Source: an uncultured Hyphomicrobiales bacterium (lineage in GTDB: Bacteria > Pseudomonadota > Alphaproteobacteria > Rhizobiales > Xanthobacteraceae). From it: a stretch of DNA of 63,857 nt. A program made the position numbers and the translations under genes. Numbering within the stretch: the stretch's first letter is position 1; each line of letters starts with the position of its first letter. The stretch covers positions 1 through 63,857 of the forward strand of contig CAITJJ010000317.1 of the NCBI GenBank assembly GCA_903892675.1, read 5' to 3'. Shown here piece after piece: positions 9,756-28,909 of the stretch. The notes below the pieces were generated by a model that did no database searches, was not told the DNA's origin, and saw only the letters and a list, made by a program, of their open reading frames with translations.

Positions 9756-11207
9756 CTAGCGGTGCAGGCAGGCGTGTATCCGGACGAGACGCCGGGATTC
9801 TTGCGGAATCGCTGTGCTGGCAATTTCACTCGCCTTTGCGGTGGCGCAAGATAGCCAAAAATAACCCGCGCTCGGATCGACCACGAGACGGTCCGGTTTG
9901 AGCCCGGGGGCGACCAGCACCGACAAATACAGCGTCGTGGAATTCCATGCGAGCCGGTTCAGGCTTGAGCCTATCCGCTGTGACGAGATGAATTGCGGAT
10001 CGCCAAGGCCCGGGTCGGCGTTCCTGCCGGTTGCCAGTGCGCGCACTGCGGCCTTGTAGTTGGTCCACATCCAGACAAATTTGGAAGTCTCGACGACATG
10101 CACCAGCATTATCAGCAGGATCGCGCCGGAGATCATGCGCGCATTCGAAGTCCTTTCAAGCGTGATTGCGATCGGCGACAAATACGGAATGGGAGATTTC
10201 CGCCGCGCCGCGTCCGGCATTCCCGACACGGCAGCGAGAACACCCAGGATTGGTGTTGCGATGAGCAGAACCGTGCGGAAATCGTACCGCGCCTCACCAA
10301 GGAGTGATTTGTCGAGCGCCATCCAGTAAACAGCAATTGCGGTGGCGCAGGCAAAGCTTGCGTATGCATAGGCTCTTGCCGGATAGACCTGCCTAAGCAC
10401 AGCGACTGCCGCGCCGTAGCCCAAAAGCGTCGCAAGCAATAACAGGACGGCGGGCTGAAGCAGGTTCCTGATGTCGATAAATTTGAACGCGGCCGCGGCC
10501 AAAACGCCGGCAATATAGTCGTCGGGCCGCACCGTCATCTTGACGGCAAGCCAGATCGTCAGCGCGACGAGAAATGCGGCGGCCGCCCTCGTAAATATCG
10601 AACCGCGCCAGCCGTGCAGAAGCAAAGCGAGAAGTATCCCACCGGAAAGAACAATGGCACCTTCATGTGTGAACACAAGCGCCAGTAAAGCGGCAAACAC
10701 GGCTGCCGCCCCGCGAAAATTGCTTGGGGCACAAAGGCAGATCGCAAGCACCGGCCAGAACAGCGTGTGCGCCATCCACATTTCCGTCGGTGCGCCGAAC
10801 ACCAGCGGACAAAGGCACGCGGTCGAGAGACAGGCATAGCCGAAAATGGTGCGGCCGGGCGTCCGGTCGGCCGCCAACGTAGCAAGCAGGCCGAACAGGG
10901 GGGCTGAGAAAAACAATAACCCATAAACAAAAATGCCGGCACGCGCGTCTTCGGTCAGGGCAACAGCCGTTTCGGCCGGAATATACGCAAAGACGTAAGT
11001 GAACAGGCGGCCGGAGATATTGTGCCAGTGAAACGGCCACGCATCCTGCGCCGCTACGGCGTAAGAGAAGATCGACCCGTCGCCGAACATCTGCAGATCG
11101 GACGAGAGTCCGATCAAGATAAAAAGAATGGACGTAGCGATCCCGATGCTTACGCAAAGAATGTAAAGCCTGCGCCGCGCCGAACAAATTTCATCGGTGG
11201 CACTCAA
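9756..11207 (-). CDS. Polytopic membrane protein, possibly GT-C-like
   Basis: About 483 residues with roughly ten hydrophobic segments and a soluble C-terminal region of about 90 residues. The start is read as TTG, which overlaps the stop of the upstream gene as TTGA; this is the last gene of a four-gene leftward run. I recognise no catalytic signature beyond acidic residues in the first periplasmic loops, an arrangement that resembles GT-C glycosyltransferases and related flippase/polymerase-like proteins. Role in glycan assembly is inferred only from its neighbours (OpgH-like, FkbM). Confidence 0.75.
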   Translation of the reverse strand: MSATDEICSARRRLYILCVSIGIATSILFILIGLSSDLQMFGDGSIFSYAVAAQDAWPFHWHNISGRLFTYVFAYIPAETAVALTEDARAGIFVYGLLFFSAPLFGLLATLAADRTPGRTIFGYACLSTACLCPLVFGAPTEMWMAHTLFWPVLAICLCAPSNFRGAAAVFAALLALVFTHEGAIVLSGGILLALLLHGWRGSIFTRAAAAFLVALTIWLAVKMTVRPDDYIAGVLAAAAFKFIDIRNLLQPAVLLLLATLLGYGAAVAVLRQVYPARAYAYASFACATAIAVYWMALDKSLLGEARYDFRTVLLIATPILGVLAAVSGMPDAARRKSPIPYLSPIAITLERTSNARMISGAILLIMLVHVVETSKFVWMWTNYKAAVRALATGRNADPGLGDPQFISSQRIGSSLNRLAWNSTTLYLSVLVAPGLKPDRLVVDPSAGYFWLSCATAKASEIASTAIPQESRRLVRIHACLHR

Positions 11208-12523
11208 GGCACCGTCCGCCGCTCGGCCGCAACGGCGACTGCGCCGGCAAGGCCGGCAAGGACCGCCCAATAGGCATAGCGAAAATCCGTGGCGACGCCA
11301 ACTGCGAAGAACGTTAGCAAATACACTACGGCCGATCCGCAGATGCTGAGTGCAAAGGCGCCCGACGGCGTGTTGCGCCGGCGCCAGGCGAACAGACACA
11401 CGGCGGCGTCGATAATCAGCCAGGTTCCGGGCCGCAATAGCGGCGTTGGCCTGAGCGCGTGATCCAGCGTCTTAAGTCCCATCAGGCGCGGATTATCCGC
11501 GAAAATGATCTTCGAGGGGTCGTCGAGGTCGCGCGTCCACATTGTCAAGTTCTCGTGGCCAAACAGGAATGTCCACATGAAGACGGCGCGGTGCGACAAA
11601 TAAGCGAGAGGGTGGCTGACGACTGCATGTTTCCAGGCCTCGGTCAGAGCCGGCGAAGCAAAAATGTTGTCCCGCTTTTCGAGGTGCTCCATGACGAATA
11701 GGCATGGCTGCTGGGTCCAATAAATGTCCCACGCGAGCGGTTTGTAGCAGCCATCCGTGATGAGACGGCTTTCTTCCGGGGTCCAGGCGCCGGGAAACAC
11801 ATTCTGTTTGGAAAAATGCGAGATGCCGCCAAGATCGAAAACCATAATCGCATGCAGTGGCTGCTGGCGCGTCGCACCGAGTACTTCGTAATAGACGGCC
11901 TGCACCAGCCCGAAGAGACCCAGAGCCGCGGGCGCAAAAACGAGCGCGGCGCGCTTCCAGGAAAAGCATGCGGGCCATAGTATGTAGGCCGCTAGGATCG
12001 GCGCCGCGGCGAGCGCATTTGGCCGCAACAGCACACCAAATGTGAGCAGGCCAAGGGCAACGAGCTGGCCCGGCACCCGCACACGCTGTCGGCAATCGGC
12101 AACGGCATAGGCAAGACCAGCCGCCAAAAGCCACGCCACGGCAAACAGGATGTCACGCCAGATGATGCCGACCAAGATGAAGGCCGGCGGCGTCAGCGCC
12201 AACACCGGCACGAGGAGCGCAAGCCCAACAGAGCATTGTGCAACGCGCAGGGCGACGATGGCAAAAGCCAGCCAGTAAAGCGCCACGGTCACGAGCAACA
12301 GGCTTGCCGTGCCCGGCGCGATCGGATCGACCATTGACCACAGCACAATCATTACCGGCGACTGCCAGTCGCCGAAAAAGCCGTTGACCATATCCTTGTA
12401 GACGTAGAGCGCGTCAAAAGTCATGACGCCGGGATAAAAGACATAAAGCGTCAGCGCGAAGCCCGCGGCGGTCATTGCGGCAATCGGCAATATTGTCCGG
12501 TTGGCTTTAGCCCAGGCGCGCAT
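11204..12523 (-). CDS. Polytopic membrane protein, GT-C-like, unknown substrate
   Basis: 439 residues when started at the ATG (MRAWAKANRT) that overlaps the end of the FkbM gene by 17 bases; a longer in-frame reading would run deep into that gene. After the first membrane segment comes VFYPGVMTFDALYVYKD followed by GDWQSPVMIVLW. This Asp-bearing first loop and an aromatic/Pro motif are characteristic of a set of bacterial GT-C-like membrane proteins. It has about nine to ten membrane helices. It probably acts with the OpgH-like and FkbM proteins on a surface or periplasmic glycan; no substrate can be named. Confidence 0.78.
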   Translation of the reverse strand: MRAWAKANRTILPIAAMTAAGFALTLYVFYPGVMTFDALYVYKDMVNGFFGDWQSPVMIVLWSMVDPIAPGTASLLLVTVALYWLAFAIVALRVAQCSVGLALLVPVLALTPPAFILVGIIWRDILFAVAWLLAAGLAYAVADCRQRVRVPGQLVALGLLTFGVLLRPNALAAAPILAAYILWPACFSWKRAALVFAPAALGLFGLVQAVYYEVLGATRQQPLHAIMVFDLGGISHFSKQNVFPGAWTPEESRLITDGCYKPLAWDIYWTQQPCLFVMEHLEKRDNIFASPALTEAWKHAVVSHPLAYLSHRAVFMWTFLFGHENLTMWTRDLDDPSKIIFADNPRLMGLKTLDHALRPTPLLRPGTWLIIDAAVCLFAWRRRNTPSGAFALSICGSAVVYLLTFFAVGVATDFRYAYWAVLAGLAGAVAVAAERRTVP

Positions 12524-13253
12524 AGATGTCTCCGGAATTGGCCTCTGGCGGCAGTCCGTCCAGCCAGCGTGCAATGGCATCCTTGCCGATCCATTCGTCA
12601 TGCGCGAATCGTTGGCTCTCTCCCAATATTGCATTGAACCGGGCGTAGCCGAGCGCGCCGCAGCGTTCGAGGCACAAATGCGCAACGTCGCGCTGGATCG
12701 TTGTAAACTCGAACGATAGCGCCGGAACCGCGCGCTCAAGACCGCCGAGCGCCTCGGATTCGAAGCCTTCGACGTCGATTTTGATAAAGGCAGGCATGCC
12801 GTGCCGTGCGATCAATGCGTCGATGGTCGTCACCGGAACGCGCACACGTTTTGGCCATGCCTGGCCGTGCCAACCCGGTGCGCCGGCCGCCGCCGCGATG
12901 AAATCGCTTGAGGCGGTTGAGACGGTTGGATTGTCGATATTGACGTTTAGCGCGACGACGCCCGCCTGACGGCCGACCGCCGCGGCTTCGATGGTCACAT
13001 CGCGGTCGCGGCCATAGAGCAGGCGCAGTGTGGCGACGAGGGCCGACTGTGGCTCGACCGCGATCACCCGCGCCTGCAGCCGCCGGAAGGCGGCGACGCG
13101 ATCGCCGACATGCGCGCCGATGTCGAAGACAAGGTCGCCCGGCCGCACGAACTGGCGATACAACCGGTCCATGGCCGGACCATGCTGCCGGTCGCCATAA
13201 TAGATCCATAAAGACCGGACAATTCCTCGTACTGTTCTGAGGGCATCGAGCAT
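12507..13253 (-). CDS. FkbM family SAM-dependent methyltransferase
   Basis: 248 residues. The SAM-binding motif VFDIGAHVGD lies at about 40-50, then VIAVEPQSALV (post-motif I) and the FkbM-type FIKIDVEGFESEALGG at about 157-172. FkbM enzymes O-methylate sugars or polyketides. It lies 12 bases after the OpgH-like gene, pointing to methylation of a saccharide made by that locus. It overlaps the next gene. No unusual residues are seen. Confidence 0.88.
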   Translation of the reverse strand: MLDALRTVRGIVRSLWIYYGDRQHGPAMDRLYRQFVRPGDLVFDIGAHVGDRVAAFRRLQARVIAVEPQSALVATLRLLYGRDRDVTIEAAAVGRQAGVVALNVNIDNPTVSTASSDFIAAAAGAPGWHGQAWPKRVRVPVTTIDALIARHGMPAFIKIDVEGFESEALGGLERAVPALSFEFTTIQRDVAHLCLERCGALGYARFNAILGESQRFAHDEWIGKDAIARWLDGLPPEANSGDIYARLG

Positions 13254-13265
13254 GCTGGTCTTGGG

Positions 13266-15071
13266 TCAAGCCCGCGCCGGCGGCGCGTTGACCTCTACAG
13301 CAGGCAGATGTAGCGGCGCGAGCGCGGCCGCCACGTCATTTTCTTCAGGAAGCCGGCAGATGCCGATTTGCGCGAACAGACGCCCGACAAGCGGGGAGGC
13401 GGTCGCAACCGCAAACGGTATCGCCAGAATAAGCCCGGCCGTTCCCATCAGCGCGAACCAGAATTCATTTGGCGCTTTCGTGGCGACGACTCCGAGCACC
13501 GTGCACCCGGCGACAGTCTGCGGCCATAGCTGCGTCAAAGCGAGCCGCCATGGCACGGCGTGACTTTGCCGCATCTGACCGCCCCAGCTGACGCCGCGCC
13601 GGAATACAAGAAGACGGGTGAGAAAAATGGTGTGGGTGAGAGCAATCAGCGGCGCCAGCAGAAGCATGAACAGCGTCTCGGCCGCGATGTTAAAGGCAAA
13701 CCGGAAGGCGCCGCCGTAGGATCGCCGTGCCGAACGCGTCAGCAAGACATCGATGATTGTTGCGATCTTAGGCGCGAATGTCATCATCATCATGATGACA
13801 AACAACACTGTGCCTGGGCCGGCCTCGACCGGCACATATTGCGCCGCCGGCGTATTGGAGAGGGCGAGCAGAATAGTGCCCATCGCTGTCATGGCCATCC
13901 ACGCTGGCGAACCGAGATACATCTGGATTGCAAACATCAACTGGAAGCGGCTGACGGGTTTCAATCCGGGCAAACTCAACAGCTGCCAGTATTGCATGTT
14001 GCCCTGGCACCAGCGCAGATCGCGGCGGCTGAATTCCATCAGCGTCGGCGGGTTCTCTTCCCAGCTCAATCCTTCCACCGGCAGAACGCGGACTTCGTAG
14101 CCGGCCCGGCGCATCAGCACGGCCTCGACCTGGTCATGGCTGAGAATGGCACCACTGAGCGGTCCATTGCCGGGCAAAACGGGCATGTGGCAATGCGCGA
14201 TGAAGGGTGCGAGGCGGATGATCGCGTTATGGCCCCAATACGGCCCGCAATCGCCCTGCCACCAGGTGGCGCCGAGGGTATACGAGCGCATGCCGAGCCG
14301 CATGCCGAATTGAAACACGCGCGCGAACGCGCTCACCGAAGGAAGACCGATAATCAAAGTCTGCAAGATGCCCAGCGTCGGATTTGCCTGTGCGATCCGG
14401 ATGAGACGCAACACAGCTTCCGTCGGCATGAAACTGTCGGCGTCGAGCATGATTGCGAATTCGTGGTTGTTGCCCCACCGTTCGCAGAAATCGCGGATGT
14501 TGCCGGACTTGAAGGCGGTGTTGACGGCACGGCGGCGGTAGGTGACCGGGATTGTGCCTTGCCAATTGGCGATAAAGGCGTCGAAGCAGGACGTCTCGTC
14601 GGCGATGATGCCGGGATCGCTGCTGTCGCTGAGCAGATAGACATGAAACAGGTGGGCGACGCTCGACTTCTCAAGGCCGGCCATCAGTGGCTCGAGGTTG
14701 CGCGTGACCTGATCCGGACTTTCGTTGCGGATACACATCAGGATGGCCGTCGATGCGGTCACTGGCTCGTCGCCTCGGATGCTGGCTGCGAGCGGGTTCA
14801 CGGCCGCCGCCGGGTCGCGGGCAAAACGCATGATGACGAAGCCGATTGCGGCGTTCCAGAATCCGATCACCGACCAGGGCAGGGTAACGGCGAAAAGCAC
14901 AAGGAACGCGATAGCGCCGAAACTGCGCGGCGGAACTGCCACGGTCGCCAGCCACAAGACCGCGAGCATGGTGGCGGCAACCAGCACTGCAAAGAGCGCC
15001 CGGCGTCGCTTCAGGGCAGCCGTTCCAGGTGCTTCCGCAATGGAAGCGAGCGCAGTCACTTGATCGGCCAT
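13266..15071 (-). CDS. opgH: Glucan biosynthesis glucosyltransferase H-like membrane GT2
   Basis: A 601-residue inner-membrane family 2 glycosyltransferase. Two N-terminal membrane segments (about 22-80) precede the cytoplasmic GT-A domain: ILMCIRNESPDQVTRNLEPL, the DxD-type FAIMLDADSFM, the general-base motif SHDQVEAVLMRR, and the processive-type motif RRDLRWCQGN. Further membrane helices follow. OpgH (MdoH) polymerises glucose from UDP-glucose into osmoregulated periplasmic glucans. It is shorter than E. coli OpgH (about 850) because the long N-terminal region is reduced. No opgG is adjacent, which is unusual. It is divergent from the dehydrogenase/PTPS-like operon across only 84 bases. Confidence 0.87.
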   Translation of the reverse strand: MADQVTALASIAEAPGTAALKRRRALFAVLVAATMLAVLWLATVAVPPRSFGAIAFLVLFAVTLPWSVIGFWNAAIGFVIMRFARDPAAAVNPLAASIRGDEPVTASTAILMCIRNESPDQVTRNLEPLMAGLEKSSVAHLFHVYLLSDSSDPGIIADETSCFDAFIANWQGTIPVTYRRRAVNTAFKSGNIRDFCERWGNNHEFAIMLDADSFMPTEAVLRLIRIAQANPTLGILQTLIIGLPSVSAFARVFQFGMRLGMRSYTLGATWWQGDCGPYWGHNAIIRLAPFIAHCHMPVLPGNGPLSGAILSHDQVEAVLMRRAGYEVRVLPVEGLSWEENPPTLMEFSRRDLRWCQGNMQYWQLLSLPGLKPVSRFQLMFAIQMYLGSPAWMAMTAMGTILLALSNTPAAQYVPVEAGPGTVLFVIMMMMTFAPKIATIIDVLLTRSARRSYGGAFRFAFNIAAETLFMLLLAPLIALTHTIFLTRLLVFRRGVSWGGQMRQSHAVPWRLALTQLWPQTVAGCTVLGVVATKAPNEFWFALMGTAGLILAIPFAVATASPLVGRLFAQIGICRLPEENDVAAALAPLHLPAVEVNAPPARA

Positions 15072-15155: not shown

Positions 15156-16151
15156 GTGTCCGACGGAGTCACCGAAGCACTATGGTATGTTGGCGCCGGG
15201 CGTGCCGAAATCCGTACCGAGCCGCTTGCCGAGCCCGGGCCGGGGGAGATCAGGGTCCGCGCACTGTATAGTGCCGTCAGCCGCGGCACGGAGCGGCTGG
15301 TGCTGGCCGGTCGCGTTCCGCCGAGCGAGTTTGAGCGCATGCGCGCCCCTTTCATGGCGGGCAGTTTCCCGTTTCCGGTCAAATATGGCTACGCGACCGT
15401 CGGCCGCGTCGAGAGCGGGCCGCCGGGACTTCAGGGGCGCCTCGTCTTCGCACTCCATCCCCATCAAAGTGCATTCAACATTCCAGCCGAAGCGGTCGTA
15501 CCCATACCCGACCGCGTGCCCCCCAGCCGCGCGGTTCTTGCCGCCAATATGGAAACCGCGCTCAACGCTGTGTGGGACGCGCGGCCGGCGGCTGCCGACC
15601 GCGTCGCGGTTGTCGGGGCGGGCGTGGTCGGTTCGCTGGTGGCCTGGTTATGCGGCCAGCTCCCTGGCACTGAGGTCACCCTGGTCGATATTGTGCCGTC
15701 GCGCGGGGAATTGGCGCGCGCCCTCGGGGTTAGCTTTGCATTGCCCAATGCTGCGCCGGGCGAATGCGATCTCGTCGTCCATGCCAGCGCGACCGCCGCA
15801 GGACTTGCGGTTGCTCTCGGGCTCGCCGGCGAGGAGGCTACAGTGCTGGAAATGAGTTGGTACGGCGCGGACGAGGTTTCGGTCCCGCTCGGCGGGGCAT
15901 TCCACAGTCGCCGCCTCAAGCTTTTGTCCAGCCAGGTCGGCCGGATCGCTCCGTCGCACCGGCCACGCTGGACCTTCGGACGCAGGCTTGCCGCTGCGCT
16001 CGACTTGTTGGCGGACAAGCGGCTCGATGCGCTGCTCGCGCCCGCGATCGATTTTCACGAACTTCCAGCGCGGCTACCCGATATACTCGCGCCACGCGGC
16101 GGCGTGCTGTGCCAGGTCGTTACTTATCCCGCGGCCAAAACGGCCGCCTGA
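15156..16151 (+). CDS. Medium-chain dehydrogenase/reductase, zinc-binding alcohol dehydrogenase-like
   Basis: 331 residues. GroES-like N-terminal domain ([40 protein letters not shown]), then a Rossmann domain with the nucleotide loop [16 protein letters not shown] near residue 150. The Cys cluster of the structural zinc is absent and catalytic zinc ligands are incomplete, so it may reduce or oxidise without zinc. The family includes BchC-like dehydrogenases and the alcohol dehydrogenases often seen beside PTPS homologues. First gene of a four-gene rightward operon; the next gene starts 17 bases on. Confidence 0.85.
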
Positions 16152-16168
16152 AACAAAGAGGTCTGCCC

Positions 16169-16570
16169 TTGTTCGCCGTCGAAGTTCGCGACCATATCAT
16201 GATTGCTCATTCTTTCCGCGGGGCGGTATTTGGCCCGGCGCAGGCGTTGCATGGCGCGACCTTTGTCATCGATGCGGCCTTTATGTCGGACGAACTCGAC
16301 GTCAATGGCATCGTTATCGATATCGGACGGGCGCACGAGGCGCTCAAGGCCACGCTTGCGCCGCTCAACTATGGCAACCTCGATACGCTGCCGGAGTTCA
16401 AGGGCGTCAACACGACGACGGAATTTCTGACCAAGCATATTTACGATCGGCTGGCGGACGCCGCGCGCGCGGGTTCGCTCGGCCGCGACGGCCGCGAGCT
16501 CAAGGCGATCCGCGTTACGTTGTCGGAATCGCACGTGGCGCGGGCCTGGTACGAGGCGGCATTGTGGTAG
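16169..16570 (+). CDS. PTPS/QueD-fold protein lacking the catalytic residues
   Basis: 133 residues, start read as TTG with AAGAGG 7 bases upstream. The T-fold of 6-pyruvoyl-tetrahydropterin/6-carboxytetrahydropterin synthases is clear: AHSF (zinc His14), LHG (His28), [27 protein letters not shown] and [11 protein letters not shown] (Glu120, the pterin-anchoring Glu). But the zinc motif HGH reads HGA (Ala30), the catalytic Asp-His of LDH reads LNY (Asn67-Tyr68), and there is no cysteine in the protein, so the catalytic Cys is missing. A dihydroneopterin triphosphate lyase reaction is therefore unlikely; a pterin- or pyrimidine-binding or different-chemistry enzyme is more plausible. Its stop lies inside the next gene. 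Confidence 0.88.
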
Positions 16571-17616
16571 GACGCGTGGCGTTCGCGGTACCGGGCGATC
16601 TTGCGACTCTGACCGGCGGCTATGCCTATGACCGGCGCATGATCGCGGAGCTTGAGGCGCTCGGTTGGGAGATTGATCTCGTCAATCTCGGCGATGGCTT
16701 TCCGCACCCGGGTCAGGAGCAACGCAAGATCGCGCAGGAGCGGCTGGCAGCCATTCCCGCAGGTCGCCCCATCGTCATCGACGGGCTCGCATTTGGTGTT
16801 CTCCCCGAGGTGGCCATGCAGCTCAGTCCGCGGCATCTGCTGATCGCGCTCGTGCATCATCCGCTGGCGATGGAGACGGGACTGACCGCGGCGCAAGCCG
16901 GCGACCTGCTCGCCAGCGAACGCGCCGCGCTGGCAACTGCGAGCCGTGTCGTTGTGACAAGCGCAACCACCGCCACGCTTCTTGTTGTCGATTACGGCGT
17001 GCCGGACGACCGCATCGTCGTTGCATGCCCGGGAACCGATAAGGCGCCAGCGGCGCACGGCAGCGCCGATGGCATCGTGCGTTTGCTGGCTGTCGGCGCG
17101 ATCGTGCCGCGCAAGGGGTTTGACGTGTTGATCGGCGCGCTCGCGACGCTGACCGACCTGCCGTGGCATTTGGCAATCGTCGGGGATCGCGGCCGCGACC
17201 CCGAAGCGGCCGCGCAACTGGATGCGGATATAATGCGTTACGGACTTGGCAGCCGGGTTGCCGTGCCCGGCGCCGTATCGCACGAGCGTCTGGACGAACT
17301 CTACGCCGGCGCCGATCTGTTCACACTGGCTTCGCGCTACGAAGGCTACGGCATGGTCTTTTCCGAAGCGATTGCCCATGGCCTGCCGATCGTTGCGACG
17401 ACAGCGGGCGCTATCCCGGAAACGGTCCCGGTGGGGGCAGCGATGCTGGTCGCGCCCGACGATGCCGCCGCGTTCGCGGCAGCGTTGCGCCGGGCCATAG
17501 AACATCCGGAAGAAAGACGCCGTATGGCGGCATCCGCGCGCGAGTCAGCACTTTCGTTTCCGAACTGGCAGGATTCCGCGAAGCTGTTTGCGAGAGCCCT
17601 CGAGGCCGCCGCATGA
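16564..17616 (+). CDS. Family 4 glycosyltransferase
   Basis: 350 residues with a GT-B fold. Start read as GTG with GAGG 7 bases upstream, overlapping the PTPS-like gene by 7 bases; a GTG 12 bases later is possible. The donor-binding region includes [14 protein letters not shown] at about 185 and the E-x7-E motif [19 protein letters not shown] at about 260. The N-terminal [20 protein letters not shown] is the acceptor-side glycine-rich loop. GT4 enzymes retain the anomeric configuration and use nucleotide sugars. The overlap with both neighbours implies that a sugar is put on the product of this operon, or that the operon serves a glycan. Confidence 0.88.
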
Positions 17617-18422
17617 CCGGCTTTTCCGCGGATTGGCTGGCGCTGCGCGAACCGCATGACCTGCGCGCGCGCAATGCGGCGGTGCTCGATGCGGTTGTTG
17701 CGTCGCAGGCCGGCAATAACGCGATCCGGATCGTCGATCTCGCCTGCGGCACCGGTTCGACGATGCGGGCGCTGGCGCCGCGGTTCTCGGCTCGGCAGAG
17801 TTGGCGGCTTGCCGACAACGATCTCAGTCTGCTGGCGCGCGCGACTGCTTCGGCCCACCCGGACGGCGTCGCCGTCACGGCGGTTCCGCTCGATCTTAAC
17901 CGCGATCTTGAAGCCGCGCTCGATGGCCCGATCGATCTGGTCACGACGTCGGCGTTGCTCGATCTTGTCTCCGAGGCTTGGCTGGATCGGCTGGCGGTCG
18001 AAACCATGTCGCGGGCGATCCCGATCTATGCGGCATTGAGCTATGACGGGCGAATTGAAATCAGCCCGCGCCATTCATTCGATGCCGTGATCACAGCGGC
18101 GGTCAACGCGCATCAACGCGGCGACAAGGGGTTTGGTCCTGCGCTCGGGCCGATGGCGGCGGGCGCTGTGATCGCGCGATTTGAATCCCTGGGCTGCACG
18201 GTCGTTAGTGGCACGGCCGATTGGGTTGTTGGGCCGCTCGACCGGGAGTTTCAACTGGAAATCTTCGCCGGCTGGGCAAGTGCGGCGCGCGACATGCCGA
18301 GCGTAGCGCTGGCCGACACGGTCGAATGGCTGACGTTCCGGCGCGATGAGGTGGACTCCGGAAGATCGTCGTTACGCATCGGTCACGTCGATTTCTTCGC
18401 GCGGCCGACGGGCAGCCGCTGA
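17613..18422 (+). CDS. Class I SAM-dependent methyltransferase
   Basis: 269 residues. Motif I IVDLACGTGSTM at about 39-50 and a later acidic loop (WRLADNDLSLLARA) define a Rossmann methyltransferase; the region LVTTSALLDLVSEAWLD is motif IV-like. The ATG overlaps the glycosyltransferase stop as ATGA. Its 3' end overlaps the convergent RibD-like gene by 40 bases. Target could be the sugar or the heterocycle of the proposed pathway; nothing in the sequence decides this. Confidence 0.85.
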   Translation: MTGFSADWLALREPHDLRARNAAVLDAVVASQAGNNAIRIVDLACGTGSTMRALAPRFSARQSWRLADNDLSLLARATASAHPDGVAVTAVPLDLNRDLEAALDGPIDLVTTSALLDLVSEAWLDRLAVETMSRAIPIYAALSYDGRIEISPRHSFDAVITAAVNAHQRGDKGFGPALGPMAAGAVIARFESLGCTVVSGTADWVVGPLDREFQLEIFAGWASAARDMPSVALADTVEWLTFRRDEVDSGRSSLRIGHVDFFARPTGSR

Positions 18423-19207
18423 GCCGACAGATCGCAGTCGAACAAGATCTCATCGTCGAGCCGAAAGGTCCGCATCGGCGCGCGTAACGCCTGGTCGGCC
18501 CGCTCGACCGGCGGCAGGGCAAAGCTCGGCCGCCCGCTGCCGAGGATAATCGGCGCAACGATGACGTGCAGCCGGTCGAGGCAACCGGCGGCGAGGAAGC
18601 GTGACACCGTTTCGGCTCCGCCCTCGATAAGAATCCGGTGCAATCCCCGTTCGGCTAGCGCTGCAAGGATTGCGGCAGGAGCGATGCGGCCGCCGGGAGC
18701 CGGCATAGTTACGACTTCCACGCCGGCCGACTGCGCCGATGTCGTTTCTTGCGCCGTGATCAGCAGGCGGCGGATGCCATCGTTGCCGAACACCTTGGCG
18801 CTCGCCGGAAGCCGCCCGTTCGGGTCGAGCACGACGCGCGCCGGATGCGGCCCGGCGACCCGCCGTACCGTCAGCAGCGGGTCATCGGCGAGCGCCGTTC
18901 CAACGCCGATGAGGACCGCATCGACCAGCGACCGCAACCTGTGGAGATGAGCCAGACCCGAAGGCCCGTTGATGTATTTCGAGTGTCCGGTTTCGGTCGC
19001 GATACGCCCGTCGAGCGTCTGACCGATCTGCGCGACGACAACCAGACTGTCGACCGTCCCGGTCCGAAGCGGCTCGAACAATTCGGCCCAAAGCGGGGGC
19101 AGAACCTGGTCCGGATCCCGAAAGGACTGCGCGAAGTTGCCCCAGGCATCGCCGCCGCCATCCGGGCTGGCCTCCGCCGTTAGTCTATACGTCGGCTCAA
19201 ATGGCAT
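18383..19207 (-). CDS. RibD C-terminal-type pyrimidine reductase
   Basis: 274 residues with one RibD_C/dihydrofolate-reductase-like domain: AQIGQTLDGRIATETGHSKYI, AVLIGVGTALADDPLLTVR, RVVLDPNGRLP, ILIEGGAETVSRFL. It lacks the zinc deaminase domain of bifunctional RibD. The first 55 residues are an extra region rich in Trp/Gly/Asp that I do not recognise. Family members reduce the ribosyl group of diaminopyrimidinone intermediates to ribityl with NADPH. It is read against its neighbours, converging on the methyltransferase and diverging from the GTP cyclohydrolase across 149 bases, so it likely shares a promoter region with the latter. Confidence 0.88.
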   Translation of the reverse strand: MPFEPTYRLTAEASPDGGGDAWGNFAQSFRDPDQVLPPLWAELFEPLRTGTVDSLVVVAQIGQTLDGRIATETGHSKYINGPSGLAHLHRLRSLVDAVLIGVGTALADDPLLTVRRVAGPHPARVVLDPNGRLPASAKVFGNDGIRRLLITAQETTSAQSAGVEVVTMPAPGGRIAPAAILAALAERGLHRILIEGGAETVSRFLAAGCLDRLHVIVAPIILGSGRPSFALPPVERADQALRAPMRTFRLDDEILFDCDLSAQRLPVGRAKKST

Positions 19208-19356
19208 CGGCGCGCCTTATCATATCATTCGCTTTTCTGGATACGCTGGCACAGAATAATCGAGATTACGACCGGAATGGTCATTGGGGTTGCGGTGTTC
19301 TATCATCAGAGCCTGTGGCAGGCCGCCGTCGGAAATCATGCCGGGAAGTTAATGAA

Positions 19357-20517
19357 ATGAGCGCGACTGGTGGGGACTCGATTTCCGCATTTTTTGGCTT
19401 GAACGGGCAGAACGGCGCTGATCGAGCGGTCGCCGAATTCTTTGCCCGACGGCCGGTGCTGATCGCAGGTGACGGCAAGCGTCTTCTTGCTTTGCCGGTC
19501 GAAGGGCTCGACTCGCAACGGCTGGCCGAATTTGCCGCGCTCAGTGCGCCGATCGCTCCACGCGTGGTCATCACGGCGCGCCGCGCGCAGGCGATCGGAC
19601 TAAGGGCGACGACGCCGGTGGTCTTGAATTCGGGCGCGGACCTCGACGTGGCAATGATTCTCAGGCTTGTGGCCGACGCCGAAACCAATCATCCCGCTGG
19701 CGCAACCGCGGCAGATCCGCTGGCCTCGGCCGCGATCGAGCTTGCGAAATTATCACAAGGTCTGCCCGCCGTGCTGGTCGCTGACATTGCCGCGGGACGA
19801 ACGCTCGATCACCGCATCGTCAGCGTCGACGCGGAGGCGATCGGACGGTTGCTCGACGATATTATCGAGTCGCTTGCCATCGCCAGCAAAGCTTCAGTGC
19901 CGCTTAATTCCGGCGCCCGCGCCGACTTCGTCGTGTTCCGTGATGCCATGGGCGGCAGCCAGGTTGCGATCATTGTCGGAAAGCCTGACTTCTCCGAGCC
20001 TGTCTTGGTGCGCCTGCATTCCGCCTGCCTTACCGGTGACGTCTTCGGTTCAAGGCGTTGCGACTGCGGCGATCAGCTCAATCTCGCGCTGAAGCATCTT
20101 GAGGAAATGGGTGGCGGCGTCGTCCTCTATCTGGCGCAGGAGGGGCGCGGCCTTGGCCTTGCCAACAAGATGCGGACCTATCAGATGCAGGACGACGGGC
20201 TCGACACGGTCGATGCCAACACGACACTTGGCTTTGATGATGACGAGCGGGACTACCGCGTCGCCGCCCGCATGCTACAGATGCTCAATTGCGATCGCGT
20301 GGTTCTGTTGACGAACAATCCGACCAAGCTCGAGGGTCTCGCCAGGTCCGGAATCAATATCACTGGGCGAATGCCGCTTGAAGCGCCCGTTAACGCCGAC
20401 AATCGCCGCTACTTGACGGCGAAGGCCGCTCGCGCCGGACACCGTCTCAACCACCTTGCTAGTTCGCTAATCGAACCGTCCGATACCGAACGTGATGTGA
20501 CGACGCTGGCGCCATGA
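19357..20517 (+). CDS. ribA: GTP cyclohydrolase II with long non-RibB N-terminal domain
   Basis: 386 residues when started at MSATGGDS. The catalytic domain occupies about 190-375: RLHSACLTGDVFGS then RCDCGDQL (zinc Cys224, Cys235, Cys237), AQEGRGLGLANKMRTY, ANTTLGFDDDERDY (Arg298) and LLTNNPTKLEGL. The Tyr whose change to Met makes some homologues stop at the formamide (E. coli Tyr105) is kept as Tyr275, so full conversion of GTP to the diaminopyrimidinone is expected. The N-terminal 185 residues resemble a RibBA layout in size but show no DHBP-synthase motifs. It may be a second, pathway-specific RibA rather than the riboflavin housekeeping copy; the symbol refers to activity. Confidence 0.9.
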   Translation: MSATGGDSISAFFGLNGQNGADRAVAEFFARRPVLIAGDGKRLLALPVEGLDSQRLAEFAALSAPIAPRVVITARRAQAIGLRATTPVVLNSGADLDVAMILRLVADAETNHPAGATAADPLASAAIELAKLSQGLPAVLVADIAAGRTLDHRIVSVDAEAIGRLLDDIIESLAIASKASVPLNSGARADFVVFRDAMGGSQVAIIVGKPDFSEPVLVRLHSACLTGDVFGSRRCDCGDQLNLALKHLEEMGGGVVLYLAQEGRGLGLANKMRTYQMQDDGLDTVDANTTLGFDDDERDYRVAARMLQMLNCDRVVLLTNNPTKLEGLARSGINITGRMPLEAPVNADNRRYLTAKAARAGHRLNHLASSLIEPSDTERDVTTLAP

Positions 20518-20590
20518 TATCGACAGGATCGGTGCATTCGCTGCAGGTGCTACGGATGCGATTCGATGGGGCTAAGGAACGGTAACAATC

Positions 20591-21382
20591 ATGTCAGACG
20601 TCGGTCCGAGTCGATTGATCGGTGAACTGACCTTCCTGGAAATTTCAAAGTTTCTGAGCGAGGGATCGATCCTGTGCATCCCGATCGGATCGATCGAGCA
20701 GCATGGCCCACATCTGCCGCTCAATACTGATGTCGTATTGGCTGAAGCCTTTACGCGCCTTATCGTTTCCCGGTGGGGTCAAGCTTTTGATCTTTGGCAG
20801 CTTCCAACGGTGTCGGTCAGTCTCGCCCGCGAACATGAATGGGCGCCCGGCACGATGTCGTTGTCGATCCAGACCTTGACGGCCCTCATGCGTGACCTTG
20901 CGCGCGAAATCGCCCGCTCGCTGCCGGCGCGCAATCTCATGATCATCAACGGCCATGGCGGTAACAGGGGGATACTGGAGGCACTGGTTCACGATATGCG
21001 TTCCGACTTTGGTTTCAATGCCTGCGTCCTGCATCCCGCCGAATTTGCGCCGATCGACGAACATGCCGCGGTGCCGGAAATTCACGGAGGTAGAAACGAG
21101 ACGTCTATTATGTTGGCGATTGCACCGCATTTGGTTCGACAGGATCGCATTGCCCAGCTGAAAAATCCGCCTGATGGCGAGGCCGTCGCCATGGCGATCC
21201 TGCAGAAGGGGGTGACGTGGCCCTGGACGACCGACGGTCGGCGGCTCGCCGACATCGGCGTCATCGGAGACGCTCAGGCCGCTTCGGCGGCGTTCGGGCA
21301 ACGTATCATCGATCATGTCGTTGAGACCGCCGGCGGGGTTCTCAAACAACTACTGGACAATCAGCGAGTGCCGGGCCACTAG
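20591..21382 (+). CDS. Creatininase-family amidohydrolase (ArfB/MftE-like)
   Basis: 263 residues. Metal ligands sit in GSIEQHGPHLPLNTD (Glu36, His38, Asp47), NGHGGN (about 120-125) and HGGRNETS (Glu170). The NGHGGN form groups it with formamide hydrolases and peptidases such as archaeal ArfB (deformylase acting just after GTP cyclohydrolase) and MftE, rather than true creatininase. In HGGRNETS the usual first Glu of HAGExET is Arg, so metal binding may differ. It starts 73 bases after the GTP cyclohydrolase gene, in the same direction, which fits an amide or formamide hydrolysis on a pyrimidine/pterin intermediate; that link is inference. Confidence 0.85.
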   Translation: MSDVGPSRLIGELTFLEISKFLSEGSILCIPIGSIEQHGPHLPLNTDVVLAEAFTRLIVSRWGQAFDLWQLPTVSVSLAREHEWAPGTMSLSIQTLTALMRDLAREIARSLPARNLMIINGHGGNRGILEALVHDMRSDFGFNACVLHPAEFAPIDEHAAVPEIHGGRNETSIMLAIAPHLVRQDRIAQLKNPPDGEAVAMAILQKGVTWPWTTDGRRLADIGVIGDAQAASAAFGQRIIDHVVETAGGVLKQLLDNQRVPGH

Positions 21383-21446
21383 ATATTCCACAAGCGCGAA
21401 GCGCGGCGGACGCGATGACAACATTCTACCGGGGGGTAGGAAAAAA

Positions 21447-23219
21447 TTGACCGACGGCACGCCGGGACAAGTCACGAGATTTGCCTCTGGCAAACGGTAT
21501 CTGGACGCTTGGTCCGCGACGGGCGCCGATTGGATCGGCCGTTTTGCGCCAGGCGGAGCGATTTCCCGTCGCCATATGGTGGCCCTCTGGATCGTCGCCG
21601 CCGTTCATCTGGCGGCCTTGATCATCATGGCCGATACCGAAGGCGATCTGGTCGCCAAGACGGCATTCCTGCTCGCGTGGATGCTGCTCAACCTGTTTTG
21701 GCTCGCACTGTTGCGGCGTCCGGTCGTGGCGGCGATCATCTCGATCGAACTCGTCATCACGCTTATCTTGCTGTCCCGATTCAAATACGACATGCTCTGG
21801 ATGACCGCCGATTTCGTCGACTTGATGATCATCGACGCGGACACCTCTGATTTTCTGTTGAAAGCAATTCCGTCGCTGAAAGGCTGGATTGCGTTTGGCG
21901 CCGTGGTGACGGTCGCAATGGTGATTGCGGCCTGGAAGCTCGATCCACTTCGCCTGCGCATCCGCAATTGCGTCATCGGCGGTTCGGCGGGCATGAGCGG
22001 ACTCGTTGTCCTGTCGCTGACGTTTCCGACCGGTCTCACCGAGGACTTTAACGGCGAACGATATATTTCAAAAATCGCGCGCACGGGCGTCGAGTCCATG
22101 CACGAACTCATTACGCACGGCTATTTGGAATCGGATGCCGTTGCGACGGAAAGTCTCAAGGCAATGCCATTCGCGGCCTGCAATCCTGCGGCCAAGCTGC
22201 CGCACATTGTTCTGCTGCACGATGAATCGAACTTTGACATCACCGCGGTCCCGGGCGTGAAAGTGCCGCCAGGCTATCATCGTCATTTTCGGTCTCTGGA
22301 TGGCAAAGCGCGCAAGCTTGTTGTGGAAGGTGCCGGTGGCCCAAGCTGGTTTACCGAATACAACGTGCTTACCGGCCTCGCGTCCCGTTCCTATGGTCGC
22401 TTTGCCACTTCGGTGACGCGGATCGCTGCCGGCCGTGTCGGCCGCGGGCTGCCGCTATCATTGAGCCGTTGCGGCTACAAAACCTTCACGCTTTATCCGT
22501 TCTACGGCGCATTTCTTGGCTCGCGAGCCTTCCAGACGACGGCCGGGGTCGAGCGCTATCTGGACATGAACGATCTTGGCACGCGCAATTTTGAGCCGGA
22601 CAGTTTTTATTTCAACCAGGCCGCCGACATCATCGGTCGCGAGCGCTCGAACGGCCCGCTCTTTCTGTACGTTTACACCGTTGCCAATCATTTTCCATGG
22701 GACAAGCGGCTGCGTCCCGAGTTGACCCCGGATTGGCGCGATCTCGGCAATGCGCCGGATCCTGAAGAATATATCCGCCGTCAGGGAATGACGGCGCATG
22801 ACTATAGCGCGTTTCTGAATCGGCTGGCGCGCGAGAATCCGGGCGAGTCATTTCTGATCGTGCGGTACGGCGATCATCTGCCGCACTTTGGGCTGCGCAT
22901 GGTCGATCCGGCCATCAGCGAAACGGAGCTTGCGCGCCGTCTCAACGCGCAGGACCCGCGCTATTTCACGACTTACTATGCGATCGACGCCGTAAATTTC
23001 AAGCCGGTCGATTTGTCCACCGCGCTCGACACGCTTGACGGGCCGTACCTGCCGCTCATCGTCCTGGACGCAGCTGGAGTTCCGCTTGACCAAAGCTTCA
23101 CCGAACAGAAGAAAATACTGAAACGGTGCCACGGCCTGTTCTATCGCTGTGCGGGCGGCGCGGAGGCCCGGCGTTTCAATCGGCTCCTCATCGATGCTGG
23201 CCTGATAAAGGGGCTATAG
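21447..23219 (+). CDS. Membrane sulfatase / LTA-synthase-like phosphoglycerol transferase
   Basis: About 590 residues; I start at TTG, which has GGGGGTAGG just upstream, because an earlier in-frame ATG lies inside the creatininase gene. Four or five N-terminal membrane helices (about 30-190) are followed by a periplasmic alkaline-phosphatase-fold domain: IVLLHDESNFDITA, GAGGPSWFTEYNVLTGL (nucleophile Ser/Thr region) and metal motif VRYGDHLPHFG. This family includes LtaS, EptA-like and OpgB enzymes that transfer phosphoglycerol or phosphoethanolamine to lipids and periplasmic glucans. With an OpgH-like gene in the same region, modification of a glucan or glycolipid is plausible. Confidence 0.82.
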   Translation: MTDGTPGQVTRFASGKRYLDAWSATGADWIGRFAPGGAISRRHMVALWIVAAVHLAALIIMADTEGDLVAKTAFLLAWMLLNLFWLALLRRPVVAAIISIELVITLILLSRFKYDMLWMTADFVDLMIIDADTSDFLLKAIPSLKGWIAFGAVVTVAMVIAAWKLDPLRLRIRNCVIGGSAGMSGLVVLSLTFPTGLTEDFNGERYISKIARTGVESMHELITHGYLESDAVATESLKAMPFAACNPAAKLPHIVLLHDESNFDITAVPGVKVPPGYHRHFRSLDGKARKLVVEGAGGPSWFTEYNVLTGLASRSYGRFATSVTRIAAGRVGRGLPLSLSRCGYKTFTLYPFYGAFLGSRAFQTTAGVERYLDMNDLGTRNFEPDSFYFNQAADIIGRERSNGPLFLYVYTVANHFPWDKRLRPELTPDWRDLGNAPDPEEYIRRQGMTAHDYSAFLNRLARENPGESFLIVRYGDHLPHFGLRMVDPAISETELARRLNAQDPRYFTTYYAIDAVNFKPVDLSTALDTLDGPYLPLIVLDAAGVPLDQSFTEQKKILKRCHGLFYRCAGGAEARRFNRLLIDAGLIKGL

Positions 23220-23246: not shown

Positions 23247-23813
23247 TCATCGGCTATTTATCGCTTCAAGAAACAGACGAACCGCGTTTTCAGGCGCACC
23301 AGCATTGTTGATGGTAAGATCCGGCTCGAAATCGGCGAAGATGTCGTTCCGCTTGATGCGAAGCTCAAGCTTTCCGTCGCTGCCGCGAGATCGGCCGGCA
23401 AGCCGCGCGGCCAGGATATCCGGCGGTGCCGTCACCACGACAACAAGAACGTTGGTGAAACGCGCACGAACGTCCACCACGATGGCGCGCGAAATGTTGC
23501 ATACGATTGTGCGGCCGGCGCGACTATCATCCTCGACGCTGCGTTGGATTCCATATTTGAGCCCGTGCGCCTGCCACCAGAAAGAAAAGCTGCCAGCTTT
23601 CACAGCCTGGTCGAAAGCTGCCTCGTCGAGGCTGTCGTGCTCCTCGGCGCTTGACATGGGGCGGGTCACGACGCGCCGCGGAAACACGACCATGGAGTTG
23701 CCATTGCAAGCCGACTTGGTGCCCGCAATTATCGTGTCCTTGCCGGCGCCGCTCGGCCCGACAACGATAACGAGCCGCCCGGGCCCGATCTTTTCCTGAG
23801 TGGGCGCGGTCAT
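23247..23813 (-). CDS. phnN: Ribose 1,5-bisphosphate phosphokinase PhnN
   Basis: 188 residues, P-loop kinase with Walker A VVGPSGAGKDT at about 17-27, similar to guanylate kinases; VVTRPMSSAEEHD corresponds to the nucleoside-monophosphate-binding segment. It converts ribosyl 1,5-bisphosphate from the C-P lyase route to PRPP, returning the ribose phosphate to nucleotide synthesis. Last gene of the leftward phn arm; its ATG overlaps the phnM stop by 4 bases. Confidence 0.92.
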   Translation of the reverse strand: MTAPTQEKIGPGRLVIVVGPSGAGKDTIIAGTKSACNGNSMVVFPRRVVTRPMSSAEEHDSLDEAAFDQAVKAGSFSFWWQAHGLKYGIQRSVEDDSRAGRTIVCNISRAIVVDVRARFTNVLVVVVTAPPDILAARLAGRSRGSDGKLELRIKRNDIFADFEPDLTINNAGAPENAVRLFLEAINSR

Positions 23814-24967
23814 GCGACGCGGCGGCCGCCGCTCCAGACGCTGCGCACTGCGACGCCGTGGTCTGACTGATGCACCTGGATGAAGTCGGCGCGCTTGCCG
23901 GCGACGATTTCGCCGCGATCGGTAAGGCCGACAGCCTCGGCCGGGGTCTTGCTGACGGTGCGCAACGCGGCCGGCAAATCGTATTTATCGGATTCAGCGG
24001 GTAGCCGCAGCGCGGCGATCAACAGGCTGGACGGAACATAATCGGAAGACATCAGATCGAGCAGGCCGGCGCGCGCCAGTTCGGCGGTCGCGACATTGCC
24101 GGAATGCGAGCCGCCACGCACAAGATTCGGCGCGCCCATCATCACCTTGATTCCATTCGCATGAAGCGCGGCGGCGGCGCCGGCAGTGGTCGGAAATTCA
24201 GCAATCGCCACGCGGTCGTTGATCGCCTGTTCGACGTGCTCGGACGTCGTGTCGTCGTGGCTCGCCAGCGGGGTGCCGTACCGGTTAGCGAGTTCGACAA
24301 GGCCCTTGTAGTTGTCGACAGCATATTTCTCCGCGTTCGAAATGCGGCGGGCAAACATTTCATCAAGCTCGAAATCGGTCATCCCACCGCTCTTGCCGCG
24401 ATAATACTCGCGCAATTTCTGGGGATCCTGGAACTGGCGTTGACCTGGGGTATGATCCATCAGCGACACCAGCCGAACATCCGGCCGATTGATAAGCCCG
24501 GCGGTGTCGCCGACGACGTTCGGCATCGGCACTTCACAGCGCAGATGCAGGAAGTGGTCGATGCGCAGCAGGCCAGCGGCGCGGGCGCGGTCTATGGCGC
24601 CAGACAGCATCTCGGCCTGGCCATCGACACCCTCGGCGTTGGCTTCCTCACGCCAAACACGAAGAGAATCGAGTACGGTCGTGATTCCGCTGGTAGCGAT
24701 CTGGGCGTCATAAGAGACAACCGCCGACACGGCGTCCCACTGCACTTTCGGGCGTGGCTGAATGTGGGCTTCGATGTGGTCGGTGTGTAGCTCGACCAGT
24801 CCGGGAAGCAACAGATCGCCGCCGAGGTCCTGGCCGCGTTCGGGCGGGCTGCCTTCGCCAACTTCCACGATATGACCATTGTCGACGACGACATAGCCGC
24901 GCTCGATGACCGCCTCGGCAAGAACGATACGGGCATTCGCAAGGATCATGGTGCCGCTGTCTGACAT
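23810..24967 (-). CDS. phnM: Alpha-D-ribose 1-methylphosphonate 5-triphosphate diphosphatase PhnM
   Basis: 385-residue amidohydrolase-fold enzyme that removes pyrophosphate from the ribosylated phosphonate before C-P cleavage. The orthologue motifs are complete: GLVELHTDHIEAH (metal His), LMDHTPGQRQF, ASHDDTT, AEFPTT, MGAPNLVRGGSHSGN and SSDYVPSSLL. Matches canonical PhnM throughout, unlike the second PhnM-like gene at 31530. It lies six bases after phnL and overlaps phnN. Confidence 0.93.
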   Translation of the reverse strand: MSDSGTMILANARIVLAEAVIERGYVVVDNGHIVEVGEGSPPERGQDLGGDLLLPGLVELHTDHIEAHIQPRPKVQWDAVSAVVSYDAQIATSGITTVLDSLRVWREEANAEGVDGQAEMLSGAIDRARAAGLLRIDHFLHLRCEVPMPNVVGDTAGLINRPDVRLVSLMDHTPGQRQFQDPQKLREYYRGKSGGMTDFELDEMFARRISNAEKYAVDNYKGLVELANRYGTPLASHDDTTSEHVEQAINDRVAIAEFPTTAGAAAALHANGIKVMMGAPNLVRGGSHSGNVATAELARAGLLDLMSSDYVPSSLLIAALRLPAESDKYDLPAALRTVSKTPAEAVGLTDRGEIVAGKRADFIQVHQSDHGVAVRSVWSGGRRVA

Positions 24968-24973
24968 ATTGCT

Positions 24974-25669
24974 TTACGCTGCCGTAGCGAAATAAGTGAC
25001 GTCGACGCCGACATCGGCGATTTCGTCGCGGACGCTTTCATCGTGGACGATAGCGATGATGGCGGCGCTTTGCGCCTTGCGCTCGCGGATGATGTCGACG
25101 ACGACGGCGCGATTATTGGCGTCGAGTGAGGCGGTCGGCTCGTCGAGCAGCAGAATCGGATGCTCAGGCAAGAGGCCACGCGCCAGATTGATGCGCTGCT
25201 GCTCGCCGCCGGAAAAGGTCGCCGGCGGCAGGCTCCAAAGCCGCTCCGGCACATTGAAGCGGCGCAGCATCATCGCGGCGCGTGCGGTCGCGTCCTCGCG
25301 CGGCGTCCCCTTCAGGATCAAGGGTTCGGCGACGATATCGAGCGCCGACACGCGCGGCACCGCGCGCAGGAATTGGGTGACGTAGCCGAGCGCTCGCTGG
25401 CGCAGCGCGAGGATTTCCCGCGGCTCAGCCAGTGCGATATCGACGGGACTGCCGCCCGCCGATACCAGAATATGGCCGCTGTCGCAGCGGTAATTGCCGT
25501 AAATCAGCTTGAGGATCGACGACTTGCCGGCGCCTGACGGGCCTGTGAGCACGACGCACTCGCCGGGCGCGGCGGCGAAGCTGACATTTCGCAGCACCGG
25601 CAGGCGCAGGCCACCCTGCAGGTGCATGGTGAAGGTCTTGGTCACGTCCGATAGCGTGAGTGCGGTCAT
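24974..25669 (-). CDS. phnL: C-P lyase ATPase subunit PhnL
   Basis: About 231 residues of ABC-type ATPase without membrane segments. Walker A LTGPSGAGKSS, signature FSGGEQQRINLARG, Walker B PILLLDEPTASLD. PhnL binds the PhnGHIJ core with PhnK and is needed for its turnover rather than for transport. Two ATG codons lie six bases apart; I choose the second because GAGG then has a spacing of 6-7 bases. Within the phnGHIJ-(acetyltransferase)-KLMN operon. Confidence 0.92.
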   Translation of the reverse strand: MTALTLSDVTKTFTMHLQGGLRLPVLRNVSFAAAPGECVVLTGPSGAGKSSILKLIYGNYRCDSGHILVSAGGSPVDIALAEPREILALRQRALGYVTQFLRAVPRVSALDIVAEPLILKGTPREDATARAAMMLRRFNVPERLWSLPPATFSGGEQQRINLARGLLPEHPILLLDEPTASLDANNRAVVVDIIRERKAQSAAIIAIVHDESVRDEIADVGVDVTYFATAA

Positions 25670-25677
25670 CGTCATCC

Positions 25678-28907: not shown

Positions 28908-28909
28908 GG

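Follow-up and report, generated by a model that had tools for sequence, protein, structure and literature searches.

A conserved gene cluster around a PTPS-IV protein in Hyphomicrobiales and a proposed route from GTP to a glycosylated, methylated pterin-like product

Seven clustered genes occupy positions 15156-21382 of a 63,857-nucleotide stretch of DNA (contig CAITJJ010000317.1 of assembly GCA_903892675.1, analysed over its whole length and called the window here) from an uncultured Hyphomicrobiales bacterium. They encode an MDR-family dehydrogenase (ADH), a T-fold protein of the PTPS-IV subfamily, a GT4 glycosyltransferase, a class I SAM methyltransferase (MT), a RibD_C-type reductase (RibD), a GTP cyclohydrolase II (GCHII, here RibA) and a creatininase-family amidohydrolase. 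These open reading frames and domains had first been named from the bare sequence, in what is called the original prediction below, and all of them were confirmed. The association of the seven genes is not chance. The reading that we favour, with somewhat more confidence than doubt, is that they form a dedicated route from GTP, separate from riboflavin synthesis after the first step, whose product would be pterin-like, glycosylated and methylated. The locus is most aptly described as a variant within GTP-derived pteridine/flavin biosynthesis.

The main evidence comes from genomes chosen by their PTPS-IV protein. The subfamily is present in 45 of a sample of 385 alphaproteobacterial genomes (about one in nine), and the window's genome is one of the 45. 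The neighbourhoods of the other 44 were fetched, contig ends truncating 10 of them, and searched with profiles that took no seed from these loci. ADH lies near PTPS-IV at 43 of them, GT4 at 42, MT at 38, RibD at 35, RibA at 18 and the creatininase-family gene at 8; one of the 18 RibA proteins, that of L154, is zinc-less and encoded near ribH. All seven genes stand together at five loci, and three of these (L165, L167 and L169) belong to genomes of 1.4-1.6 Mb, which retain exactly this set even at that size. A search for co-occurrence of the neighbours in other genomes had been proposed as a check on the original prediction, and by these counts the check was strongly passed.

A second line of evidence starts from RibA. 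With the window's protein as query, contigs of GTDB genomes yielded 88 relatives, and the best 80, which were used, comprise 11 loci from Rhizobiales, 6 from gamma- or betaproteobacteria and 63 others. The seven genes recur in the same order and on the same strands at 9 of the 11 Rhizobiales loci, and a tenth (L012) is cut by a contig end. At the six gamma- and betaproteobacterial loci MT, GT4, RibA, RibD and ADH are all retained but arranged differently, and five of these loci also have a divergent PTPS (L062 ends before PTPS). The 63 other GCHII loci served as a control: in them the profiles found no ADH, no MT, a single PTPS match (25 bits) and three GT4 genes, along with one CDP-alcohol phosphotransferase, one flippase-like gene and 27 RibD genes, the last being expected of riboflavin genes.

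The gene set also reaches beyond the Alphaproteobacteria. Among 398 Pseudomonadota genomes of a second draw, 27 carry PTPS-IV, 4 of them already in the first set, and 20 of the other 23 loci were fetched, namely all 11 from outside the Alphaproteobacteria along with 9 belonging to the same order or family as the window. The 11 outside loci all contain ADH, GT4, MT and a CDP-alcohol phosphotransferase, together with RibD (10), a flippase-like gene (10), the creatininase-family gene (5) and RibA (4). The nine closer loci have ADH and GT4 throughout, RibD and MT at seven each and RibA at four. A tblastn search of plasmids with the PTPS protein returned 21 records, and 14 of these stretches, chosen in this way by PTPS, were examined by tblastn with the window's proteins, yielding ADH in 12, GT4 and MT in 11 each, RibD in 8 and RibA in 5. 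One of them, a plasmid of the archaeon Natronorubrum, holds a CDP-alcohol phosphotransferase, ADH, a divergent PTPS, GT4 and MT together; RibD was not found in that stretch. Most of the core is thus present in other Pseudomonadota, in actinobacteria and, with its divergent PTPS, in one haloarchaeon.

Pairwise distances within the group of ADH, PTPS, RibD and CDP-alcohol phosphotransferase correlate at r 0.78-0.86, and those of GT4 and MT at r 0.82, values that carry no correction for the species tree and were compared with permutations, whose maxima did not exceed 0.41.

Part of this neighbourhood has been noticed before. A 2017 study (PMC5445326) describes PTPS-IV, node 62 of a neighbourhood network, by its FGPAQ signature, with 561 sequences at the time, and gives as its neighbours PF01872 (RibD_C) and PF00925 (GCHII), which it calls GTP cyclohydrolase I/FolE2. 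The window shares the signature, and both neighbours are found there. Section 19 of that study names no pathway or product, and ADH, GT4, methyltransferase, creatininase and CDP-alcohol phosphotransferase are absent from the neighbours given there. In the open-licence PMC papers searched, nothing was found that describes the whole gene set or its product. Within that literature the claim of an undescribed pathway stands for this set; that PTPS-IV, GCHII and RibD_C are neighbours was on record already.

While the association itself is conserved, every chemical step of the proposed pathway is one that we infer from the individual genes. In the first, RibA (19357-20517, plus strand; PF00925, 7e-54) would open GTP to give 2,5-diamino-6-(5-phosphoribosylamino)pyrimidin-4-one. 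The window's protein keeps the zinc-cysteine motif CLTGDVFGSRRCDC and the Tyr of NKMRTY, as do its close relatives, at what we take to be the zinc-binding and catalytic positions of GCHII. It also has an N-terminal extension of about 175 residues (19357-19880 of the window), which aligns along its whole length in close relatives.

The second step would be carried out by RibD (18383-19207, minus strand; PF01872, 1e-42), turning the ribosyl into a ribityl chain. A Pfam search of the cluster RibD found RibD_C only and no deaminase domain, so the 2-amino group would stay in place. The best PDB matches, 6p8c (6e-24) and 2azn (2e-23), belong to enzymes that reduce the 2,5-diamino compound, or to an archaeal homologue, and they rank ahead of bacterial RibD (5e-20). 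Copy numbers were scanned in 37 of the 44 genomes (G053, G064, G184, G205, G236, G260 and G326 were left out). At least two RibD_C matches of at least 100 bits are found in 31 of these 37 PTPS-IV genomes and in none of 40 genomes that lack PTPS-IV; in most cases, therefore, the RibD of the cluster is an extra gene.

The third step would fall to the PTPS-IV protein and the dehydrogenase, which may convert or bind the 2-amino-4-oxo intermediate and so provide a pterin-like core. PTPS-IV (about 16169-16570, plus strand, with a probable TTG start; PF01242, 4e-21) bears the FGPAQ signature of its subfamily (COG0720), and FG[PS]AQ occurs in 75 of 79 collected cluster sequences. Aligned with the PTPS homologue 2dj6, the window's protein reads HGA for HGH and LNY for LDH, and across the PTPS-IV alignment the Asp and His of LDH are usually Asn and Tyr. 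HGA replaces HGH in 77 of the 79 sequences and the other two are of HAH type. The Cys spacings of PTPS and QueD (CxxxHG or CxxxxxHG) occur in none of the 79, the two HAH-type sequences being unmatchable by such a pattern and having no Cys there in the alignment. The cluster proteins thus fall short of the Cys and three zinc His, with the Cys upstream of HGH, that we take to be the catalytic residues of PTPS and QueD, and the description of a dead-site PTPS was correct in that the catalytic Cys and the third zinc His are lost. One Glu, E123, is invariant across the PTPS-IV alignment and is presumably the residue that anchors the pterin ring; the protein would then be catalytically unlike PTPS or QueD, with this putative anchor retained. 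Its closest solved structure is SCO6650 of Streptomyces coelicolor (PDB 3d7j, 2.4e-48). SCO6650 and a second homologue from that species, SCO6655, have reportedly been studied in isolation, and SCO6650 is said to lack both zinc and PTPS activity. The dehydrogenase (15156-16151, plus strand) gives weak, BchC-like matches to NCBIfam models and none to Pfam at 0.001. In its sequence S-x-G-T-E and GY motifs replace the usual Cys and His at what we assume are the zinc-ligand positions of zinc alcohol dehydrogenases.

In the fourth step GT4 (16564-17616, plus strand, GTG start; PF00534, 1e-31) and then MT (17613-18422, plus strand; PF13649, 1e-7) would glycosylate and methylate the core. Successive action is supported by the correlation between their distances and by natural fusions: the two lie in one open frame at 6 of the 11 loci outside the Alphaproteobacteria (L206, L207, L209, L210, L212 and L215), and both Pfam domains were confirmed in L206. 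The MT structure model is good (pLDDT 92), and its Foldseek matches are assorted class I methyltransferases, none of which points to a substrate.

The fifth step, assigned to the creatininase-family protein (20591-21382, plus strand; PF02633, 3e-54), would be removal of an acyl or amide group, or deformylation of a FAPy-type intermediate where RibA cannot perform it. The motifs EQHGPHLPLNTD, NGHGGN and HGGRNETS, presumed to supply the metal ligands of creatininases, are intact. The protein passes the Pfam family cut-off; with NCBIfam models it scores 124 bits for MftE (cut-off 172), 94 for creatininase (235) and 27 for ArfB (180). Its designation as an amide hydrolase of the ArfB/MftE type is accordingly apt in a loose sense, MftE being the best of the models, and too specific otherwise, both cut-offs being missed. 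The window's RibA, beside this gene, keeps the Tyr and QEGRG. Two alphaproteobacterial loci with the creatininase-family gene (L132 and L139) have a RibA with QEGCG where others have QEGRG, and both genomes own a second high-scoring GCHII. On a Streptomyces fungicidicus plasmid (L090) the gene occurs together with a RibA that has Met at the Tyr position. SCO6655, a GCHII paralogue with a change at this Tyr, is said to make a formylated (FAPy) product; if so, a Met-type RibA would need a creatininase-family deformylase, as in archaea.

This plasmid locus has six of the window's seven genes (ADH, PTPS, GT4, MT, creatininase and RibA), together with a CDP-alcohol phosphotransferase and a flippase-like gene; it differs from the window in that RibD was not found in L090 and in the Met of its RibA. 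By family, the first two steps proposed here resemble those of bacterial and archaeal riboflavin biosynthesis (RibA/RibD and ArfB/ArfC), and archaeal ArfB is a creatininase-family deformylase. Unlike those systems, the cluster adds the T-fold protein, GT4, MT and ADH, has no deaminase domain that could be found and no lumazine or riboflavin synthase noticed in the locus, and its creatininase-family protein is a poor match to ArfB. The product class first suggested, a glycosylated and methylated pterin, pyrimidine or flavin-like molecule, still stands, and retention of the 2-amino group would favour a pterin or pyrimidine over a flavin. The gene set ties together several orphan annotations, among them PTPS-IV, stand-alone RibD_C proteins, GCHII paralogues and a creatininase-like enzyme, and offers a defined, testable starting point for finding a new GTP-derived compound. 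If the reading is true, a natural product or cofactor may so far have been overlooked here.

Several observations weigh against a dedicated route. RibA, the creatininase-family gene and the sulfatase-family gene described below are present at a minority of loci, and may for that reason be optional. PTPS and RibA distances correlate at r 0.37 only, below the permutation maximum of 0.45. One Rhizobiales locus (L014) has six of the seven genes, with an ankyrin-repeat open reading frame and no creatininase in the 1.3 kb after RibA, and the Streptomyces plasmids L085 and L091 carry PTPS-IV without any partner. Other points concern RibD. The general RibD C-terminal model of NCBIfam scores higher on it (130 bits) than the archaeal diamino-reductase model (107, where 186 are needed). 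RibD is absent from 9 of the 44 loci; in favour of the route, 5 of the 8 scanned genomes without it at the locus carry an extra RibD_C of at least 100 bits elsewhere. In G231 and G233 the second RibD_C matches are all weak, and G096 has one match in all. The 40 control genomes include small ones, and 9 of them lack any RibD_C match. In the window's own assembly, which is 85.5% complete, one RibD_C was seen, and neither a second copy nor RibH was found. Finally, the main role of the cluster RibA may lie in riboflavin synthesis, a point taken up below.

The product may also end in or beyond the membrane, as is suggested by the partners that surround the core: a CDP-alcohol phosphotransferase or an MdoH-like transferase, flippase-like proteins and sulfatase-family proteins. 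A CDP-alcohol phosphotransferase is found at 15 of the 44 alphaproteobacterial loci (at two of them fused to FkbM), an MdoH-like gene at 10, a cytochrome b561-like gene at 10, FkbM at 6 and the sulfatase-family gene at 5. A special case of the favoured pathway can be built on these genes, and we consider it possible, though distinctly tentative: the CDP-alcohol phosphotransferase would couple the product, through its ribityl phosphate or an alcohol group, to a lipid, and the conjugate would be flipped and used outside, the window representing an MdoH-type version of the same arrangement. In keeping with such a role, the phosphotransferase subfamily is specific to the cluster, being present in 17 of 37 PTPS-IV genomes and in none of 24 without PTPS-IV, and where loci are split it stands beside RibA (G175 and G271) or RibD (G028). 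A motif that we take to be catalytic in CDP-alcohol phosphotransferases is kept in 34 of 35 sequences, the distances follow those of ADH, PTPS and RibD (r 0.83-0.86, again uncorrected for the species tree), and a flippase-like gene accompanies the core at 10 of the 11 loci outside the Alphaproteobacteria. That said, the window's genome gave no match for the phosphotransferase, nor did 20 of the 37 PTPS-IV genomes, the three small seven-gene genomes included, no flippase-like match was obtained at any of the 44 alphaproteobacterial loci, and we know of no established substrate for the phosphotransferase of the cluster.

CDP-alcohol phosphotransferase and MdoH-like genes never occur together among the 44 loci (L128-L171), and none of the nine MdoH-version genomes scanned has the phosphotransferase. 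Both are present, however, at 4 of the 11 loci outside the Alphaproteobacteria (L209, L210, L214 and L215), so they are not strict alternatives. The fusions of the phosphotransferase to FkbM run in one open frame in L166 (6183-7919) and L168 (4371-8054), and both Pfam domains were confirmed in L166. An open reading frame family of MdoG type (periplasmic glucan biosynthesis) lies beside the cluster in L206, L209, L210, L212, L214 and L215, with a PF04349 match of 2e-186 in L206.

A bolder proposal, which we regard as a long shot, is that the locus makes a redox cofactor of the envelope. This would be a glycosylated, methylated pterin, made from GTP by a pathway branching from that of riboflavin, linked to lipid in the version with the CDP-alcohol phosphotransferase and handled by the MdoH-like protein in that of the window; it would receive or pass electrons through the cytochrome b561-like protein, and would be a quinone-like compound shared by proteobacteria, actinobacteria and haloarchaea.

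A simpler account would have RibA and RibD as plain riboflavin synthesis genes that lie by chance beside a glycan gene cluster. As an explanation of the whole set this is unlikely, and what can be said for it comes from RibA. Fifteen of the scanned genomes have RibA at the locus; in 11 of them it is the sole GCHII match above 150 bits, and for that reason it may often serve riboflavin too. The RibBA homologues fetched from beside ribH in 13 genomes all lack the zinc-cysteine motif, and the only copies seen in the window's own genome besides the cluster RibA are a degenerate RibBA-like one (C175), which likewise lacks it, and an atypical one (C106). L190, L191 and L192 encode stand-alone RibA proteins that have the motif; in the L185 protein the cysteines are by eye apparently present, with Glu for Asp, outside the motif pattern. 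Judged by these sequences, the cluster RibA often stands alone as a GCHII likely to work, in which case riboflavin synthesis probably draws on it too; in a few genomes it is an extra copy. Those few are the 4 of 15 (G015, G161, G216 and G382) that have a second GCHII above 150 bits, and they speak against the riboflavin account, as does the additional, deaminase-less RibD of most PTPS-IV genomes. RibH is found in 36 of the 37 scanned genomes, the exception being G161 (L165; 1.6 Mb, 96% complete), which keeps all seven genes, has the cluster copy as its only RibD_C and gave no match for RibH, a further point against the riboflavin account. PTPS, ADH, GT4 and MT are not known to take part in making riboflavin.

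Separate housekeeping copies of ribA and ribD had been named in the original prediction as something to count, and the outcome is divided: the expectation of a second copy was borne out for RibD in most genomes and went the other way for RibA in 11 of 15. The statement that this is not an ordinary riboflavin operon holds, given a RibD without deaminase domain and the lack of lumazine synthase in the locus; DMRL synthase had no match anywhere in the window's incomplete assembly, and riboflavin synthase was not noticed in the locus, no profile search having been made for it. An FMN riboswitch, whose absence would count against the riboflavin account, was found neither in the window nor in 7 cluster loci with RibA, a result that is uninformative given a single one (L189) in 16 other GCHII stretches. 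Expression of SCO6655, which is annotated to riboflavin, is anticorrelated with predicted flux (-0.61) in the data reported in PMC2853524. A plain riboflavin operon is rejected for RibD, PTPS, ADH, GT4 and MT, and kept as a possibility for RibA.

That the genes modify nucleic acids, through a pathway of queuosine or deazapurine type, is very improbable: the T-fold protein is annotated as 6-carboxytetrahydropterin synthase in many plasmid records and shares its fold family and putative pterin-binding Glu with QueD and biopterin PTPS, but the QueD-type Cys and third His are lost, the QueD model gives 33 bits against a cut-off of 89, and no QueC, QueE or tRNA transglycosylase gene occurs among the neighbours in the 12 annotated plasmid stretches (of 14).

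In the window GT4 starts 7 nt before the end of PTPS at 16564, and MT overlaps GT4 by 4 nt (ATGA) at 17613, while 17 nt separate the end of ADH from the probable start of PTPS. Translational coupling of at least four genes had been proposed; the two overlaps are real, and they join three genes, PTPS, GT4 and MT. RibD, on the minus strand, converges on MT, the 3' ends of the two overlapping, and diverges from RibA, so the seven genes are not one transcript. A scan for promoters and terminators found 3 and 6, respectively, where 1.4 and 5.2 are expected.

The wider locus exceeds seven genes. Upstream, on the minus strand, lie an FkbM-family methyltransferase (12507-13253) and an MdoH/OpgH-like membrane glucosyltransferase of family GT2 (13266-15071), which makes the window an MdoH version; downstream, on the plus strand, is a membrane protein of the sulfatase/alkaline-phosphatase superfamily (about 21429-23219, start uncertain), whose structure model was useless (pLDDT 34). 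All three are peripheral members that recur beside the core elsewhere. Phosphonate C-P lyase-like genes, read by eye from the open reading frames as PhnN, PhnM and others beside them, adjoin the locus at 23247-29273 on the minus strand, and among the fetched relatives only L004 has PhnN and PhnM matches at that flank. On the other side, two large open reading frames without a Pfam match (9756-12739, minus strand) are kept beside the cluster in most Rhizobiales relatives, one (F7) in nine loci and the other (F9) in eight.

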